From: Kibdelosporangium persicum
GTDB lineage: Bacteria; Actinomycetota; Actinomycetes; Mycobacteriales; Pseudonocardiaceae
Reading direction: 5' to 3'
NCBI RefSeq assembly: GCF_013280595.1
Contig: NZ_JAAATY010000040.1
Location: 1 to 64,000 of the forward strand
DNA length: 64,000 nt
Both the position numbers and the translations under genes were made by a program. The notes beneath the pieces were generated by a model. It was not told where the DNA came from, did no database searches, and saw only the letters and a list, made by a program, of their open reading frames with translations. Of the stretch, positions 32,757-38,295 are shown piece by piece; within the stretch, counting starts at the first letter, position 1; each line of letters starts with the position of its first letter.

Positions 32757-34433
32757 ATGTCGGCGATCAGGATCGGCAACGCGTCCGGGTTCTACGGGGA
32801 CCGGTTCGGCGCGGTGCGCGAGATGCTCACCGGTGGGCCGCTCGACGTGCTCACCGGCGACTACCTGGCCGAGCTGACCATGCTGATCCTCGGCCGCGAC
32901 CGGATGAAGGACCCGAAGCTCGGCTACGCCAAGACGTTCCTGCTCCAGATGGAGGAGAACCTCGGCCTGGCGGCCGAGCGGGGCGTGCGGATCGTCACGA
33001 ACGCCGGCGGCCTGAACCCCGCCGGTCTGGCAGACGCCTTACGGGAACTGGCCGGGAAGCTGGGGCTGGACGTGCGCGTCGCGCACGTCGAAGGCGATGA
33101 CCTGATCGGCCGTGCCGCCGAACTCGGGCTCGGTCAACCGTTGACCGCCAACGCCTACCTCGGCGCTTTCGGGATCGCGGAGTGCCTCAGGGCAGGCGCC
33201 GACGTCGTGGTGACCGGCCGGGTGACCGACGCGTCAGTGATCGTCGGCCCGGCCATCGCGGCTTTCGGCTGGCAGCCGACGGACTACGACCAGCTCGCCG
33301 GTGCGGTCGCGGCCGGGCACGTGATCGAATGCGGCGCGCAGGCCACCGGCGGCAACTACTCGTTCTTCCAGGAACACGACATCCGCCACCCGGGCTTCCC
33401 GATCGCCGAGATCCACCCCGACGGCAGCAGTGTGATCACCAAGCACGACGGCACGGGCGGTGCCGTGACTGTGGGAACCGTGACGGCCCAACTACTCTAC
33501 GAGATCGCCGGTGCCCGCTATGCCGGGCCGGACGTCACCGCCCGCTTCGACACCATCGAACTGTCCCAGGAGGACACTGACCGGGTCAGGATCACCGGCG
33601 TACGTGGCGAACCGCCCCCACCGTCGCTCAAGGTGTCGCTGAACACCCTGGGCGGCTTCCGCAACGAGATGGTCTTCGTGCTCACCGGCCTGGACATCGA
33701 GGCCAAGGCCGAACTGGTGAAGCAGCAGCTGACGTTCGCCAAGCCACCTGCCGAGATCAAGTGGACGCTCGCCCGCACGGACCACGTCGACGCGGCCGGT
33801 GAGGAAGAGGCGAGCGCGCTGCTGCGGTGTGCCGTCAAGGACGCCGATCCCAAGGTCGTCGGCCGGGCGTTCGCCAACGCGGCGGTCGAAATCGCGTTGG
33901 CGAGCTATCCAGGATTCCACGTGACGGCCCCGCCCGGCGACGCATCGCCCTACGGACTTTTCACGCCTGGTTACGTGGACGCGAAACTGGTCGACCACGT
34001 GGCGATTGTGGACGGTCGGACGATCCCCGTCCCGCCCGCCGCCGAGACGCTTCCCCTGGAACCGGTGGAGGAACCCCCGCTGCCCGAACCTCTGACGGGG
34101 CCGGCGCGGCGGGCGCCGCTGGGCCTCGTCGCCGGTGCTCGGAGCGGGGACAAGGGAGGTGACGCGAACGTCGGCGTCTGGGTGCGTACCGACGAAGCCT
34201 GGCGGTGGCTGGTGCACGCGTTGACCGTCGACGAGTTCCGCAGGCTGCTGCCGGAAACCGCTGCGCTGCCGGTGACCAGGCACGTGTTCGGCAACCTGAA
34301 AGCGGTGAACTTCGTGGTCACGGGCATCCTCGGCGACGGCGTCGCGTCGCAGGCCCGGTTCGACCCGCAGGCCAAGGCGCTCGGCGAGTGGTTACGAGCG
34401 CGGTACACGGACATCCCGGAGGTACTGCTGTGA
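32757..34433 (+). CDS. AtuA-like protein (acyclic terpene utilisation family)
   Basis: A 558-aa protein with an N-terminal DUF1446/AtuA domain (IRIGNASGFYGDRFGAV through about residue 440) and a C-terminal small domain (GARSGDKGGDANVGVWVRT to the end) found fused or adjacent in AtuA proteins. Pseudomonas atuA belongs to the citronellol/geraniol degradation cluster that also encodes geranyl-CoA carboxylase; its biochemical role is still unclear. Here it precedes both carboxylase subunits, overlapping the beta subunit start (GTGA), so the same association holds. ATG 32757 follows a strong operator-like dyad. Confidence 0.88.
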   Translation: MSAIRIGNASGFYGDRFGAVREMLTGGPLDVLTGDYLAELTMLILGRDRMKDPKLGYAKTFLLQMEENLGLAAERGVRIVTNAGGLNPAGLADALRELAGKLGLDVRVAHVEGDDLIGRAAELGLGQPLTANAYLGAFGIAECLRAGADVVVTGRVTDASVIVGPAIAAFGWQPTDYDQLAGAVAAGHVIECGAQATGGNYSFFQEHDIRHPGFPIAEIHPDGSSVITKHDGTGGAVTVGTVTAQLLYEIAGARYAGPDVTARFDTIELSQEDTDRVRITGVRGEPPPPSLKVSLNTLGGFRNEMVFVLTGLDIEAKAELVKQQLTFAKPPAEIKWTLARTDHVDAAGEEEASALLRCAVKDADPKVVGRAFANAAVEIALASYPGFHVTAPPGDASPYGLFTPGYVDAKLVDHVAIVDGRTIPVPPAAETLPLEPVEEPPLPEPLTGPARRAPLGLVAGARSGDKGGDANVGVWVRTDEAWRWLVHALTVDEFRRLLPETAALPVTRHVFGNLKAVNFVVTGILGDGVASQARFDPQAKALGEWLRARYTDIPEVLL

Positions 34434-36025
34434 CGACGTTGCAGTCCACACTGGACACGGCGTCGGACGAGTACGCGGCGAACCGCGAGTCGATGCTCGG
34501 CAAGCTGGCCGAGCTGGACGGCGAGTACGCCAAGGCGATCGCCGGTGGCGGGCCGAAGTACGTCGAACGACACCGCAAACGCGGCAAACTCCTCGCCAGG
34601 GAACGCGTCGAGCTGCTGATCGACCCGGACTCGCCGTTCCTGGAGCTGTCCCCGCTGGCCGCGTGGGGCAGCGACTACACCGTCGGTGCCAGTGTGGTCA
34701 CCGGAATCGGCGTGGTCGAGGGCGTCGAATGCATGATCATGGCCAGCGACCCGACCGTGCGCGGCGGGTCGAGCAATCCGTGGACGGTCAGGAAAACGTT
34801 CCGCGCCATGGACATCGCGCTGGAGAACCGGCTGCCGTTGATCAACCTCGGCGAGTCCGGCGGTGCGGACCTGCCGTCGCAGAAGGAGATCTTCATCCCG
34901 GGCGGCCGGTTGTTCCGTGACCTCACCAGGTTGTCCGCCGCGGGCATCCCGACGATCGCCTTGGTCTTCGGCAACGCGACGGCCGGCGGCGCGTACGTGC
35001 CGGGCATGTCCGACCACGTCGTGATGGTCAAGGGCCAGTCCAAGGTCTTCCTCGGTGGCCCGCCGCTGGTCAAGATGGCCACCGGTGAGGAGTCGGACGA
35101 CGAGTCACTGGGCGGTGCGGAGATGCACGCCCGCAAGTCCGGCCTGGCCGACTACTTCGCGGTCGACGAGCAGGACGCGATCCGGATCGGCAGGCGGATC
35201 GTGGCGCGGCTGAACTGGAAGAAGCGCGGCGCGGCACCGGGTCCGTACACACCGCCGCTGTTCGACGAGGACGAGCTGCTGGGCGTCGTGCCTGGCGACC
35301 TCAAGATCCCGTTCGACCCGCGGGAAGTGATCGCGCGGGTGGTCGACGGTTCGGACTTCGACGAGTTCAAACCGATGTACGGAACCAGTCTGGCGACCGG
35401 CTGGGCGACGGTGCACGGGTATCCGGTCGGTATCCTGGCCAACGCCCAAGGCGTGTTGTTCAGCGAGGAGTCGCAGAAGGCCGCGCAGTTCATCCAGCTG
35501 GCGAACCAGACGGACACCCCGCTGATCTTCCTGCACAACACCACCGGGTACATGGTCGGCAAGGACTTCGAGCAGGGCGGCATCATCAAACACGGCTCGA
35601 TGATGATCAACGCCGTGTCGAACTCGAAGGTGCCGCACATCTCGATCCTGATGGGCGCCTCCTACGGCGCGGGACACTATGGAATGTGCGGCCGCGCGTA
35701 CGACCCACGGTTCCTGTTCGCCTGGCCGAGCGCGAAGTCGGCGGTGATGGGACCGCAACAACTGGCCGGCGTACTGTCCATTGTGGCGCGTGCGGCGACC
35801 TTGGCTCGTGGCGAGGAGTACAGCGAGGAGAACGACGCGGCCATGCGCGCGATGGTCGAGGCGCAGATCGAAGCCGAGTCGCTGCCGATGTTCCTGTCCG
35901 GCAGACTGTACGACGACGGCGTGATCGATCCCCGCGACACCAGGACGGTCCTCGGGCTCTGCCTGTCCGCCATCCACACCACACCAGTGGCCGGCGCCGA
36001 CGGCTTCGGCGTCTTCCGGATGTGA
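34430..36025 (+). CDS. Acyl-CoA carboxylase carboxyltransferase (beta) subunit
   Basis: A 531-aa carboxyltransferase that moves CO2 from carboxybiotin to an acyl-CoA. Two crotonase-like halves carry the oxyanion-hole motifs: GESGGADLP and FGNATAGGAYVPGMSDH in the first, HNTTGYMVGKDFEQGG and SYGAGHYGMCGRAYDPRF in the second. The SDYTVGASVVTGIGVVEG and FLGGPPLVKMATGE segments are characteristic of methylcrotonyl-CoA and geranyl-CoA carboxylases rather than propionyl-CoA carboxylase. GTG 34430 overlaps the AtuA-like stop. With AtuA upstream, geranyl-CoA or a related branched enoyl-CoA is a plausible substrate; methylcrotonyl-CoA (leucine degradation) cannot be excluded. Confidence 0.92.
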   Translation: MTTLQSTLDTASDEYAANRESMLGKLAELDGEYAKAIAGGGPKYVERHRKRGKLLARERVELLIDPDSPFLELSPLAAWGSDYTVGASVVTGIGVVEGVECMIMASDPTVRGGSSNPWTVRKTFRAMDIALENRLPLINLGESGGADLPSQKEIFIPGGRLFRDLTRLSAAGIPTIALVFGNATAGGAYVPGMSDHVVMVKGQSKVFLGGPPLVKMATGEESDDESLGGAEMHARKSGLADYFAVDEQDAIRIGRRIVARLNWKKRGAAPGPYTPPLFDEDELLGVVPGDLKIPFDPREVIARVVDGSDFDEFKPMYGTSLATGWATVHGYPVGILANAQGVLFSEESQKAAQFIQLANQTDTPLIFLHNTTGYMVGKDFEQGGIIKHGSMMINAVSNSKVPHISILMGASYGAGHYGMCGRAYDPRFLFAWPSAKSAVMGPQQLAGVLSIVARAATLARGEEYSEENDAAMRAMVEAQIEAESLPMFLSGRLYDDGVIDPRDTRTVLGLCLSAIHTTPVAGADGFGVFRM

Positions 36026-36030
36026 GAGCG

Positions 36031-38295
36031 ATGATCACAAGTGTTCTGGTCGCGAACCGTGGGGAGATCGCCCGGCGGGTGTTCCGTACCTGCCGGTCCC
36101 TCGGGATCTCCTGCGTGGCGGTCTATTCGGACGCCGACGCGTCGTCGCCGCACGTGGCCGAGGCGGACGCGGCCGTCCGCCTGCCCGGCAACACGCCGTC
36201 GGAGACCTACCTGCGCGGTCCGTTGATCATCGAAGCCGCCCAGCGCGCGGGCGCGGACGCGATCCATCCCGGCTACGGCTTCCTGTCGGAGAACGCGGAC
36301 TTCGCCCGCGCGGTGATCGAGGCGGGCCTGACGTGGATCGGCCCGTCCCCCGAAGCCATCGGCCAGATGGGCTCGAAGGTAGCGGCGAAGCGGTTGATGG
36401 CCGCGGCGGGAGTCCCGGTCCTGTCCGAAGTGGACGACGTCACGGCCGACGACCTGCCGGTGCTGATCAAGGCATCGGCGGGCGGCGGCGGCCGGGGCAT
36501 GCGCATCGTGCGCGACCTCGCGGACCTGCCCGGCGAGCTCGAAGCGGCCAAGTCGGAGGCCTTGTCGGCGTTCGGCGACCCGACGGTGTTCTGCGAGCCG
36601 TACCTGGAGACCGGACGGCACATCGAAGTCCAGATCATGGCCGACACCCACGGAACGGTCCGGGCAGTCGGCGAACGCGAATGCTCGATCCAGCGCAGGC
36701 ACCAGAAAGTCATCGAGGAAGCCCCGTCCCCACTGGTCGAACGCACCCCAGGCATGCGCTCGCGCCTCTTCGCCGCCGCCCGCGCGGCGGCGAGCGCTAT
36801 CGCCTACACCGGCGCCGGAACCGTCGAGTTCCTCGCGGACGAAAACGGCCGTTTCTACTTCCTGGAGATGAACACCCGCCTCCAGGTCGAACACCCGGTG
36901 ACCGAGTGCACGACCGGCCTGGACCTCGTCCGCCTGCAGATCCTGATCGCCCAGGGCGCCCACCTGCCCGCCCTGATCCCCACCGGCGCAGCCCTTTCCG
37001 CAACAGCAATTCGCCGAGGGGAACCCCTGAATTCAACGTTACCGCAAGGGACCGACAGTTCCGGTGCGGCGCAGACGCCCGCCGGCGTCAGCGCAGCCCC
37101 TTCCGCAACAGCAATTCCCCAAGGGGATCCCCTTGATTCAACGTTACCGCAGGGGTCTGACAATTCCGGCGCACGCGCGGCCGGCAGCCAGGCCGCGAAA
37201 GACCGTGCCAATCTGAGCGCAGCCCTCTCCACAACAGGAATTCCCAAGGGGGAACCCCTGATTTCAACGCTACCGGAGGGGTACGACAGTTCTGGGCCGC
37301 CGCTCACGCGCGGGCACGCGATCGAGGTGCGGCTCTATGCCGAGGATCCCGCGCAGGACTGGCGGCCGCAGAGCGGTGTGGTGCATCGGCTTTGCGTGCC
37401 CGGCGTGACCACGGAGTTCGCGGTGCCCGCCGGGCCGGGGCTTCGGCTGGACAGCGGGTTGCGGGACGGCTCCGCCGTCAGCGTCTTCTACGACCCGATG
37501 CTGGCGAAGGTCATCTCGTTCGCCGACACCCGGGAGGAGGCCGCGCTCGGGCTGGCCGGTGCGCTGGCGCGTGCGGAGATCCACGGGTTGGTGACCAACC
37601 GGGACCTGCTCGTGCGCGTGCTGCGGCATCCCGAGTTCCTGGCAGGCAACACCGACACCGCGTTTCTCGACCGGCATGAGCTGGCCGTCCTCGCGGAGCC
37701 GCTCGCCGACAAGGACACCGAGGCGCTCAGTGCGCTCGCGGCCGCGTTGGCCGACGCCGCGGCACGGCGTTCCATGGACGTCCCGAGCGGATGGCGGAAT
37801 GTGCCGTCGCAGCCGCAGCGCAAGGTGTACCGGACGGCGTCCGGTGATCACGAGGTCACGTACCGGCACACTCGGGCAGGCCTGGTCACCGACGGGTATC
37901 CGGACCTGCGGCTGCTCAGTGCCGAACCGGAGCACGTGGTCCTCGAGGTAGCCGGGGTGCGCCGGGCGTTCCGGGTCGCGGTGTATCCGGGCCTGGTCTG
38001 CGTGGACTCGCCGTTGGGGCCGGTGTCGCTGACGCCCGTGCCGCGGTTCACCGATCCGTCCGCCCAGACGGCGCCGGGCTCGCTGCTCGCGCCGATGCCG
38101 GGGACTGTGGTCAGGGTCGCGGTGTCCGCCGGGGACCAGGTCGAACAGGGCCAGCCGCTGCTGTGGCTCGAGGCCATGAAGATGGAGCACAAGATCATTG
38201 CTCCGGCCACGGGGACGGTCACGTCGCTGTCGGTCGTCGCGGGCCAGCAGGTCGACCTGGGGGCCGTGCTGGCGGTGGTGGCGCCACTGGAATGA
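36031..38295 (+). CDS. Acyl-CoA carboxylase biotin carboxylase/biotin carrier (alpha) subunit with in-frame repeat insertion
   Basis: A 754-aa biotin-dependent subunit. The N-terminal biotin carboxylase has the ATP-grasp loop KASAGGGGRGMRIV, the catalytic EVQIMADTHGTVRAVGERE and FLEMNTRLQVEHPVTE. The C-terminal biotin carrier domain has biotinyl Lys717 in EAMKMEHKI. Residues 320-422 are not part of the enzyme fold: three 26-residue repeats (ATAI..GEPL.STLPQG..SSG) interrupt the chain between the motif ending QGAHLPALIP and the conserved GHAIEVRLYAEDP. In ordinary homologues these two blocks are separated by only about ten residues, at a surface loop. The reading frame is kept throughout. ATG 36031, 5 bp after the beta subunit. 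Confidence 0.93.
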   Translation: MITSVLVANRGEIARRVFRTCRSLGISCVAVYSDADASSPHVAEADAAVRLPGNTPSETYLRGPLIIEAAQRAGADAIHPGYGFLSENADFARAVIEAGLTWIGPSPEAIGQMGSKVAAKRLMAAAGVPVLSEVDDVTADDLPVLIKASAGGGGRGMRIVRDLADLPGELEAAKSEALSAFGDPTVFCEPYLETGRHIEVQIMADTHGTVRAVGERECSIQRRHQKVIEEAPSPLVERTPGMRSRLFAAARAAASAIAYTGAGTVEFLADENGRFYFLEMNTRLQVEHPVTECTTGLDLVRLQILIAQGAHLPALIPTGAALSATAIRRGEPLNSTLPQGTDSSGAAQTPAGVSAAPSATAIPQGDPLDSTLPQGSDNSGARAAGSQAAKDRANLSAALSTTGIPKGEPLISTLPEGYDSSGPPLTRGHAIEVRLYAEDPAQDWRPQSGVVHRLCVPGVTTEFAVPAGPGLRLDSGLRDGSAVSVFYDPMLAKVISFADTREEAALGLAGALARAEIHGLVTNRDLLVRVLRHPEFLAGNTDTAFLDRHELAVLAEPLADKDTEALSALAAALADAAARRSMDVPSGWRNVPSQPQRKVYRTASGDHEVTYRHTRAGLVTDGYPDLRLLSAEPEHVVLEVAGVRRAFRVAVYPGLVCVDSPLGPVSLTPVPRFTDPSAQTAPGSLLAPMPGTVVRVAVSAGDQVEQGQPLLWLEAMKMEHKIIAPATGTVTSLSVVAGQQVDLGAVLAVVAPLE
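36988..37296 (+). repeat. Three in-frame copies of a 78-bp palindrome-bearing unit inside a CDS
   Basis: Units at 36988-37065, 37093-37170 and 37219-37296, separated by 27 and 48 bp (all multiples of three). Units 1 and 2 match at 67 of 78 positions by hand count; unit 3 is more diverged. Each has a core with AGGGG..CCCCT dyad symmetry; in unit 2 it is the perfect palindrome CAAGGGGATCCCCTTG (37120-37135). ATTCAACGTTACC follows the core. They encode residues 320-345, 355-380 and 397-422 of the carboxylase alpha subunit. Confidence 0.92.

Follow-up and report, generated by a model that had tools for sequence, protein, structure and literature searches.

A dispersed Kibdelosporangium repeat with a PafBC-type promoter motif lies in frame in an acyl-CoA carboxylase gene

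Here, we describe a short repeat that occurs three times in frame in the gene for the alpha subunit of an acyl-CoA carboxylase in Kibdelosporangium persicum. The stretch of DNA analysed (the window) comprises 64,000 nt and is part of contig 40 of the 10.35-Mb genome (NZ_JAAATY010000040.1, assembly GCF_013280595.1). The three units belong to a ~79-bp repeat that is dispersed, mostly between genes, across the genus, with at least 12 to 74 matches per genome in eight genomes. On one strand, the repeat matches the DNA-damage promoter motif of PafBC, which passages of PMC11804915 describe as a sigma-adapting activator that recognises a -26 motif and responds to single-stranded DNA as its trigger. 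We give a probability of roughly 0.7 to the reading that this is a Kibdelosporangium-wide repeat with a PafBC-type promoter core that is tolerated in frame in genes and would be fired by PafBC upon DNA damage.

Three repeat units lie in frame in the carboxylase gene

The alpha subunit gene encodes 754 residues in one frame that is open across all three repeat units (Table 1), as an earlier model-made reading of the window's letters (the first-pass annotation) had claimed. The units are direct repeats with start-to-start distances of 105 and 126 nt, with which the 78-nt unit, the spacers of 27 and 48 nt and the coordinates given in that annotation all agree; only the tract in unit 3 had been misread, as it is ATTTCAACGCTACC and not ATTCAACGTTACC. 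Units 2 and 3 are 77% and 79% identical to unit 1 over 96 nt. Moreover, a pattern of the GGGG/CCCC dyad plus TTCAACGNTACC, with up to three mismatches allowed, has exactly three matches in the 64 kb compared with a mean of 0.01 in shuffled sequences.

The insert was expected to add about 100 residues and adds 107, the two flanking conserved blocks being 135 instead of 28 residues apart. Similarly, the solved alpha chain of methylcrotonyl-CoA carboxylase (MCC), 3u9s, has 7 residues where the window protein has 112; the phmmer alignment of the two stops at 314/329 and restarts at 427/337. An MCC-alpha BT domain in the protein and the carboxyltransferase and AtuA-type genes that precede its gene point to an MCC- or geranyl-CoA-type carboxylase, presumably in a catabolic pathway; the label of an essential-type enzyme was thus too strong.

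The unit is dispersed across the genus

A sequence-only profile was built from ten units, and 150 first-look candidates were scored per genome; the counts may therefore be lower bounds. At E<=0.01, the profile had at least 25 matches in the window's own genome (G000) and at least 64, 28, 59, 24, 74, 12 and 12 in the seven same-genus relatives (G001-G007). Further copies, for which a search had been proposed, are thus abundant and mainly intergenic in the own genome and in relatives. Placement was counted for the best 150 places listed, which form 123 clusters, with 13 places in the carboxylase gene and none in G007. Outside the carboxylase gene, 129 of the 137 listed units are intergenic, 7 lie within one gene, that for the sarcosine oxidase alpha subunit (soxA), and 1 lies at a gene edge. 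All 20 clusters that hold more than one listed unit have them in head-to-tail order.

A short core pattern had 5-47 matches per genus genome and its reversed form none; some of these matches are not units, e.g. one before a RecA-like gene. Across the order, the core pattern had at least one match in 70 of 200 genomes (own included), mostly one or two. Of 15 core matches inspected outside the genus, three (L234, L235 and L236, all in one genome) were unit-like by profile and, among the matches listed, the exact pattern also occurred in Amycolatopsis, Goodfellowiella, Actinokineospora and Glycomyces. In 20 such outside-genus loci (among 80 listed), the 23 matches extend only from profile positions 19-31 to positions 69-77 of 79; hence, the dyad and the promoter motif look like a wider core and the first ~20 positions like a Kibdelosporangium addition. 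A search with window unit 2 in plasmid and phage collections gave no match at E<=0.01. On two closed chromosomes, a bias of the units to one third of the chromosome is suggestive (P 0.01-0.15 depending on arc width, with the best arc chosen).

A GCAGGTCA-like tract lies 6-16 nt beyond the unit end in the 3' flanks of 24 of 171 units (e.g. L125 and L152); its 8-9-nt forms were seen 20 times compared with a shuffle mean of 0.37, and twice in 5' flanks. The tract is possibly part of a longer form of the repeat. Just beyond position 105,626 of contig C9 in G000 (L011, L109), a tandem GCGCGCGAACCCAGCCGCGGGCTACAGC-type repeat adjoins a unit. The repeat is also present in two genomes (records JOAA010000xx and MTQO010000xx) that are placed in one genus with the Kibdelosporangium genomes; their titles (Rhodococcus rhodnii NRRL B-16535 and Actinosynnema sp. 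ALI-1.44) look wrong.

The unit carries an invariant PafBC-type promoter motif

A passage of PMC8151990 gives the motif of PafBC as TGTCGG-10xN-TA-3xN-T, with TGTCAG and TGTCAC as variants, and one of PMC5656591 gives it as tTGTCRgtg-8 nt-TannnT. The reverse strand of the unit has the consensus TGTCGGACCCCTGCGGTAACGT, which matches TGTCRG-N10-TANNNT; the full published form is present in two of the three window units. The view of the element as a mobile repeat within coding DNA had overlooked this motif on the opposite strand. We aligned 125 units from 90 loci, leaving out L182-L214 (including the soxA unit of G005). Of the 72 alignment columns that contain 100 letters or more, 11 are invariant: seven are the fixed bases of TGTC-N12-TANNNT and four belong to the dyad. 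TGTC-N12-TANNNT is present in 123 of 124 units. As a control against a motif forced by the search, we used units found by the other half of the profile alone in 628 kb of fetched loci; A-N3-TA-N12-GACA was kept in 148 of these 151 units (E<1e-6), and the three exceptions have spacing longer by one base, spacing shorter by one base and a changed -10 box.

The regulator is encoded in the window's own genome, where pafA is followed by a WYL and WCX (PafB) open reading frame (ORF) and an HTH_PafC ORF (L375). Motifs of the PafBC form also stand at genes: by eye, radA is preceded by one, 7 nt from its start, in G001 and G005, and an SNF2-family helicase gene has one at its start in G000 and G001; another lies before a RecA-like gene (named by look) in G007. 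At radA and the SNF2-family helicase gene, a unit lies just upstream in the same direction as the native motif, so that both genes have native and repeat-borne motifs in tandem.

Elsewhere in the own genome, a PafBC-like motif is found at L243:2001, 31 nt before a gene that we take, from its protein start, to be egtA-like; weaker matches near position 2001 of L240 and L241 are perhaps related to it. In other families of the order, PafBC-like motifs stand directly before what are presumably, by the look of the proteins, DUF222/13E12-HNH-like genes (L225-L231). An origin of the unit as the 5' end of such genes is unsupported, because a unit-like match was found in only 1 of 20 genus DUF222 loci (L249) and a PafBC motif at the gene start in only 1 of 11 callable genus loci (L258).

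The arms of the dyad covary

The dyad occurs as CAGGGG..CCCCTG, CAAGGG..CCCTTG or GGGGG..CCCCC, the two arms changing together. The mean arm length is 5.33 compared with 5.005 (sd 0.061) when right arms were re-paired at random, and 0 of 1000 re-pairings gave a value as high; this covariation is visible only by the dyad-centred count. Because the dyad starts a few bases beyond the -10 box, it would be the first transcribed stretch or an operator over the start site.

The carboxylase insert is specific to the genus

Spacing between the conserved blocks is 28 residues in 23 of 28 loci from other genera; in the remaining five, the motifs did not find both blocks. Within the genus, G007 likewise has 28 residues and no unit, while G000 to G006 have 135, 166, 66, 58, 111, 92 and 70 residues with 3, 4, 1, 1, 2, 2 and 1 units, respectively, the second of the four units in G001 having been detected by a later model search alone. 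The orthologue comparison that the first-pass annotation proposed thus indicates a genus-specific insert that is absent in the measured loci of other genera. The protein itself has a strong match in 50 of 60 genomes of the family, two of these in the genus, and the G007 carboxylase is the most divergent of the eight (83% and 75% over two halves).

Nearest relatives of the carboxylase units lie mostly within the gene. The first units of G001 and G005 pair with each other (identity 0.97), as do their last units (0.91), and the two units of G004 are closest to each other (0.91). Moreover, mean identity is 0.81 among carboxylase units and 0.75 between these and units elsewhere. Together, these relationships favour local duplication and loss after a single entry. 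Three of 14 carboxylase units weigh against this history: unit 3 of G000, unit 2 of G001 and the single unit of G003 are each slightly closer to a unit outside the gene.

A second host gene and a filter on coding copies

In G000-G006, i.e. seven of eight species, soxA contains one unit, in frame and antisense (L104, L110, L120, L126, L133, L169 and L190). The gene was identified by the Pfam domains SO_alpha_A3, Fer2_4 and GCV_T, with TIGR01372 just under its cut-off. The soxA of G007 is without the unit: query residues 1-143 and 173-895 match with 6 nt between them. Other genera have different sequence at the site (14 of 20 loci readable by script). We also observed that a sequence which follows the second Rossmann strand in other genera is missing from Kibdelosporangium soxA; the unit fills this site in seven of eight species, and G007 is short there.

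Measured between the fifth alignment column and the last base of GACA, the core has 65 nt in all 14 carboxylase units and in all six aligned soxA units. Among intergenic units that reach the fifth column, 50 of 88 have the 65-nt core and the others have 62, 63, 64 or 66 nt. Two frames are mostly free of stops in 98 intergenic units of sufficient length (+0 in 87, -2 in 89), with 47, 56, 22 and 1 units stop-free in the other four, and carboxylase and soxA each use one of these two, but different ones. As coding units keep the 65-nt core and use the mostly stop-free frames, units seem to enter genes by chance and to pass a strict filter there, as in Rickettsia. No sign was found of a small ORF starting within the unit.

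Half of the called intergenic units lie in convergent gaps

Among the 126 intergenic units with both neighbours called, 63 lie in convergent, 45 in co-directional and 18 in divergent gaps, while convergent gaps make up 17.4% of the intergenic bases in a 221-kb background (the window plus eight other stretches). Counted per locus, 53 of 106 are convergent. Overall, the position of the units is mainly 3' of genes.

Units are conserved beyond their flanks and differ in presence between species

Relative orientation agrees in 109 of 109 orthologous pairs of unit loci between species, and copy number differs in 36. In 64 noncoding orthologous pairs, identity is 0.82 for units and 0.58 for the noncoding 50-bp flanks, values that are inflated by the use of recognisable units only and of the best of several pairs; for comparison, identity is 0.72 between unrelated units and 0.52 between unrelated flanks. 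The unit exceeds the flank in 90 of 93 comparisons. This stronger conservation of orthologous units relative to their flanks makes it probable that the unit has a function.

Seven loci of G001 and G005 were chosen because no unit was listed in the sister: at six of them the sister's region is without a unit, and at the seventh it retains one of two units; two more stretches yielded no useful comparison. At one of the six (L142 compared with L412), units occupy the orthologous place in G003, G004 and G006, and so the unit was most likely lost in G001. By eye, L413 and L414 of G005 have a terminator-like hairpin where a unit stands in G001 (L160 and L161). The L149 unit of G005 is flanked by a direct repeat of ~33 nt that is single in the unit-free gap of G001 (L411).

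Target-site duplications (TSD) of 4 to 9 nt around 125 units showed no clear excess; the largest count, at 6 nt, was 7 compared with 4.25 expected, and 38 of 300 shuffles were as high. Similarly, the same units had no terminal inverted repeats (TIR), the best end-to-end inverted match being 7 nt with one mismatch. The copies, their placement and the orthologues thus support the proposal of a dispersed repeat that lies mainly between genes in an actinomycete and tolerates being inserted in frame into coding sequence. Its mobility gains no support from these data: there is no clear excess of TSD and no TIR, and many copies have been passed on at orthologous sites with their orientation unchanged.

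Discussion

We propose that one unit entered each of the carboxylase and soxA genes after the G007 lineage had split off; a variable loop as the site and two nearly stop-free frames out of the unit's six would account for its tolerance. Upon DNA damage, PafBC together with housekeeping RNA polymerase would activate transcription from the units, with short leader or antisense RNAs as products. Units before radA and the SNF2-family helicase gene would add a second damage promoter to the native one, and antisense transcripts from the carboxylase units would reach the upstream beta gene if they were long enough.

Several observations weigh against this proposal. PafBC-dependent promoter activity of the units is deduced from sequence, and the published -26 variants (GG, AG and AC) occur in 76 of 124 units, many others having TGTCRT. 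Forty-four units point toward a gene start and 83 toward a gene end, the corresponding numbers for co-directional gaps being 25 and 20, i.e. there is no bias for driving genes. Genes were called with a home-made codon-usage caller trained on the window. Because many intergenic loci are mutually orthologous and not independent, binomial values for convergent placement overstate the evidence; the conservation values are inflated as stated above. RNA folds of single units are ordinary compared with shuffles (z -1.5 to +1.4), and RNAalifold on the model alignment found no compensatory pair. Finally, structure prediction of the carboxylase from six sequences gave a mean predicted local distance difference test score (pLDDT) of 35, unusable for the loop.

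More tentatively, the units may form a dispersed DNA-damage regulon in which PafBC fires dozens of them and the carboxylase loop serves in addition as an antisense promoter, with a dosage set by in-frame tandem copy number. In such a regulon, convergent gaps would be a source of leader or antisense RNAs, and antisense transcripts from within the carboxylase reading frame would run across the alpha and beta genes.

A selfish repeat similar to repetitive extragenic palindromic (REP) sequences or miniature inverted-repeat transposable elements (MITE) is a possibility to which we give limited weight. The motif would then stem from the origin or the own propagation of the element, be of no use to the host, and the coding copies would be neutral and filtered by frame. 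The copy number of at least 12 to 74 between species, the presence or absence at orthologous G001/G005 gaps, and the placement at 3' ends and in convergent gaps, as described for REPs in passages of PMC3733652, fit such an element, as does the lack of a common function among the neighbour genes scanned in the own genome. However, the units change more slowly than their flanks, seven promoter bases are invariant, neither a clear TSD nor a TIR is present, and window unit 2 is without counterpart in the plasmid and phage collections.

We consider it unlikely that the unit is a 3'-end element in which CAGGGG-N-CCCCTG followed by ATTTT weakly terminates transcription or stabilises RNA, the promoter-like bases being there by coincidence. 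Convergent gaps hold half of the called intergenic units, a hairpin replaces the unit at two gaps of G005 (L413 and L414, by eye) and the dyad arms covary; on the other hand, 83 of 171 3' neighbours are on the same strand, i.e. without bias, though the T tract is one-sided, and the invariant TGTC and TA...T would be left unexplained. An old protein module, or a protein-level repeat of the carboxylase that is repetitive by chance, is highly improbable: one frame is kept in 14 of 14 units and seven of eight species, but the insert is absent in the G007 orthologue and in the measurable loci of other genera, and the same DNA unit occurs between genes and, in another frame and strand, in soxA, copies that refute the module. 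We found no point in favour of an assembly error or a decayed gene, which are refuted by the related units and open frames at this place in seven genomes, two of them single-contig (G002 and G004).

In-frame repeats and promoter-bearing repeats are each already known (PMC2229807 and PMC2649163). Rickettsia palindromic elements (RPEs), named by the first-pass annotation as the known precedent, lie between genes and in frame in conserved enzyme genes (PMC2229807), as the window repeat does in carboxylase and soxA. This precedent stands, but it is not the only one: the same review reports in-frame fusion for enterobacterial repetitive intergenic consensus (ERIC) sequences, Yersinia RU-2 and the 107-bp Correia element. 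Rickettsia provides the best-known examples of intergenic repeats that survive in frame, next to some from enterobacteria and Neisseria. RPEs are 105-146 bp long with TIR and long stem-loops, whereas the unit described here is ~79 bp long, has no TIR and folds ordinarily; unlike RPEs, it carries a PafBC motif and varies in tandem copy number inside a gene.

Correia repeat enclosed elements (CREE), or Neisseria miniature insertion sequences (NEMIS), are similarly dispersed and supply promoters (part of PMC2649163), and their 107-bp form is fused into genes (PMC2229807); however, CREE promoters arise at the ends, and the elements have inverted repeats, while here the conserved core itself is the promoter motif, which belongs to the DNA-damage (PafBC) type. 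REPs and bacterial interspersed mosaic elements (BIME) are short and palindrome-bearing, often lie downstream of genes and between convergent genes and are in some cases intragenic (part of PMC3733652). By contrast with REPs, which are 20-40 bp long with GTAG or CGTC tags and REP-associated tyrosine transposases (RAYT), the consensus here is tagless by eye and, at 75-79 nt, about twice as long. MITEs have TIR, which the unit lacks, and TSD, of which we saw no clear excess.

Mycobacterial PafBC-dependent (RecA-independent, P1) promoters have the same TGTCRG-N10-TANNNT motif (parts of PMC8151990 and PMC5656591), and PafB and PafC are present here. The sites described in those parts are promoter regions of genes, many of them for DNA repair, whereas here motif and palindrome are packed in a dispersed, tandem repeat that mostly does not face gene starts. 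At the level of titles and abstract openings, we found no description of a dispersed repeat built on a PafBC promoter in the open-access papers searched. What the actinomycete case offers is a species with an empty site, in-frame copies graded from 0 to 4 over eight relatives, two host genes with opposite repeat orientations, and a length filter in coding but not in intergenic copies. The case also suggests a way for a stress promoter to spread, namely as a repeat family; both the growth of a damage regulon and the effect of antisense promoters within enzymes thereby become directly testable.

Features of the window

Table 1 Coordinates of the repeat units, their elements and the host genes in the window
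Feature	Position	Strand	Remark
Repeat unit 1	36986..37066	+	Profile match, 79.5 bits (model includes unit 1)
Repeat unit 2	37091..37171	+	Profile match, 76.1 bits (model includes unit 2)
Repeat unit 3	37217..37296	+	Profile match, 78.9 bits (model includes unit 3)
PafBC-type promoter motif, unit 1, TGTCGG-N10-TAACGT	37036..37057	-	Antisense, toward the 5' half of the gene
PafBC-type promoter motif, unit 2, TGTCAG-N10-TAACGT	37141..37162	-	Pattern match
PafBC-like motif, unit 3, TGTCGT-N10-TAGCGT	37267..37288	-	Sixth base differs from the published variants
GGGG/CCCC dyad, unit 1	37017..37028	.	A few bases beyond the promoter -10 box; arms covary across units
GGGG/CCCC dyad, unit 2	37122..37133	.	
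GGGG/CCCC dyad, unit 3	37248..37259	.	
Acyl-CoA carboxylase alpha subunit gene with insert	36031..38295	+	Pfam Biotin_carb_N, CPSase_L_D2, Biotin_carb_C, BT_MCC_alpha, Biotin_lipoyl
Extra loop, alpha subunit residues 315-426	36973..37308	+	phmmer against 3u9s; block spacing
Carboxyltransferase (beta) subunit gene, upstream of the alpha gene	34430..36025	+	PF01039

A search of the window with Rfam at gathering scores gave a single match, which is unrelated to the repeat units: positions 1405-1521 on the plus strand match the actinobacterial sRNA Ms_IGR-7 with 56.2 bits (cut-off 45).

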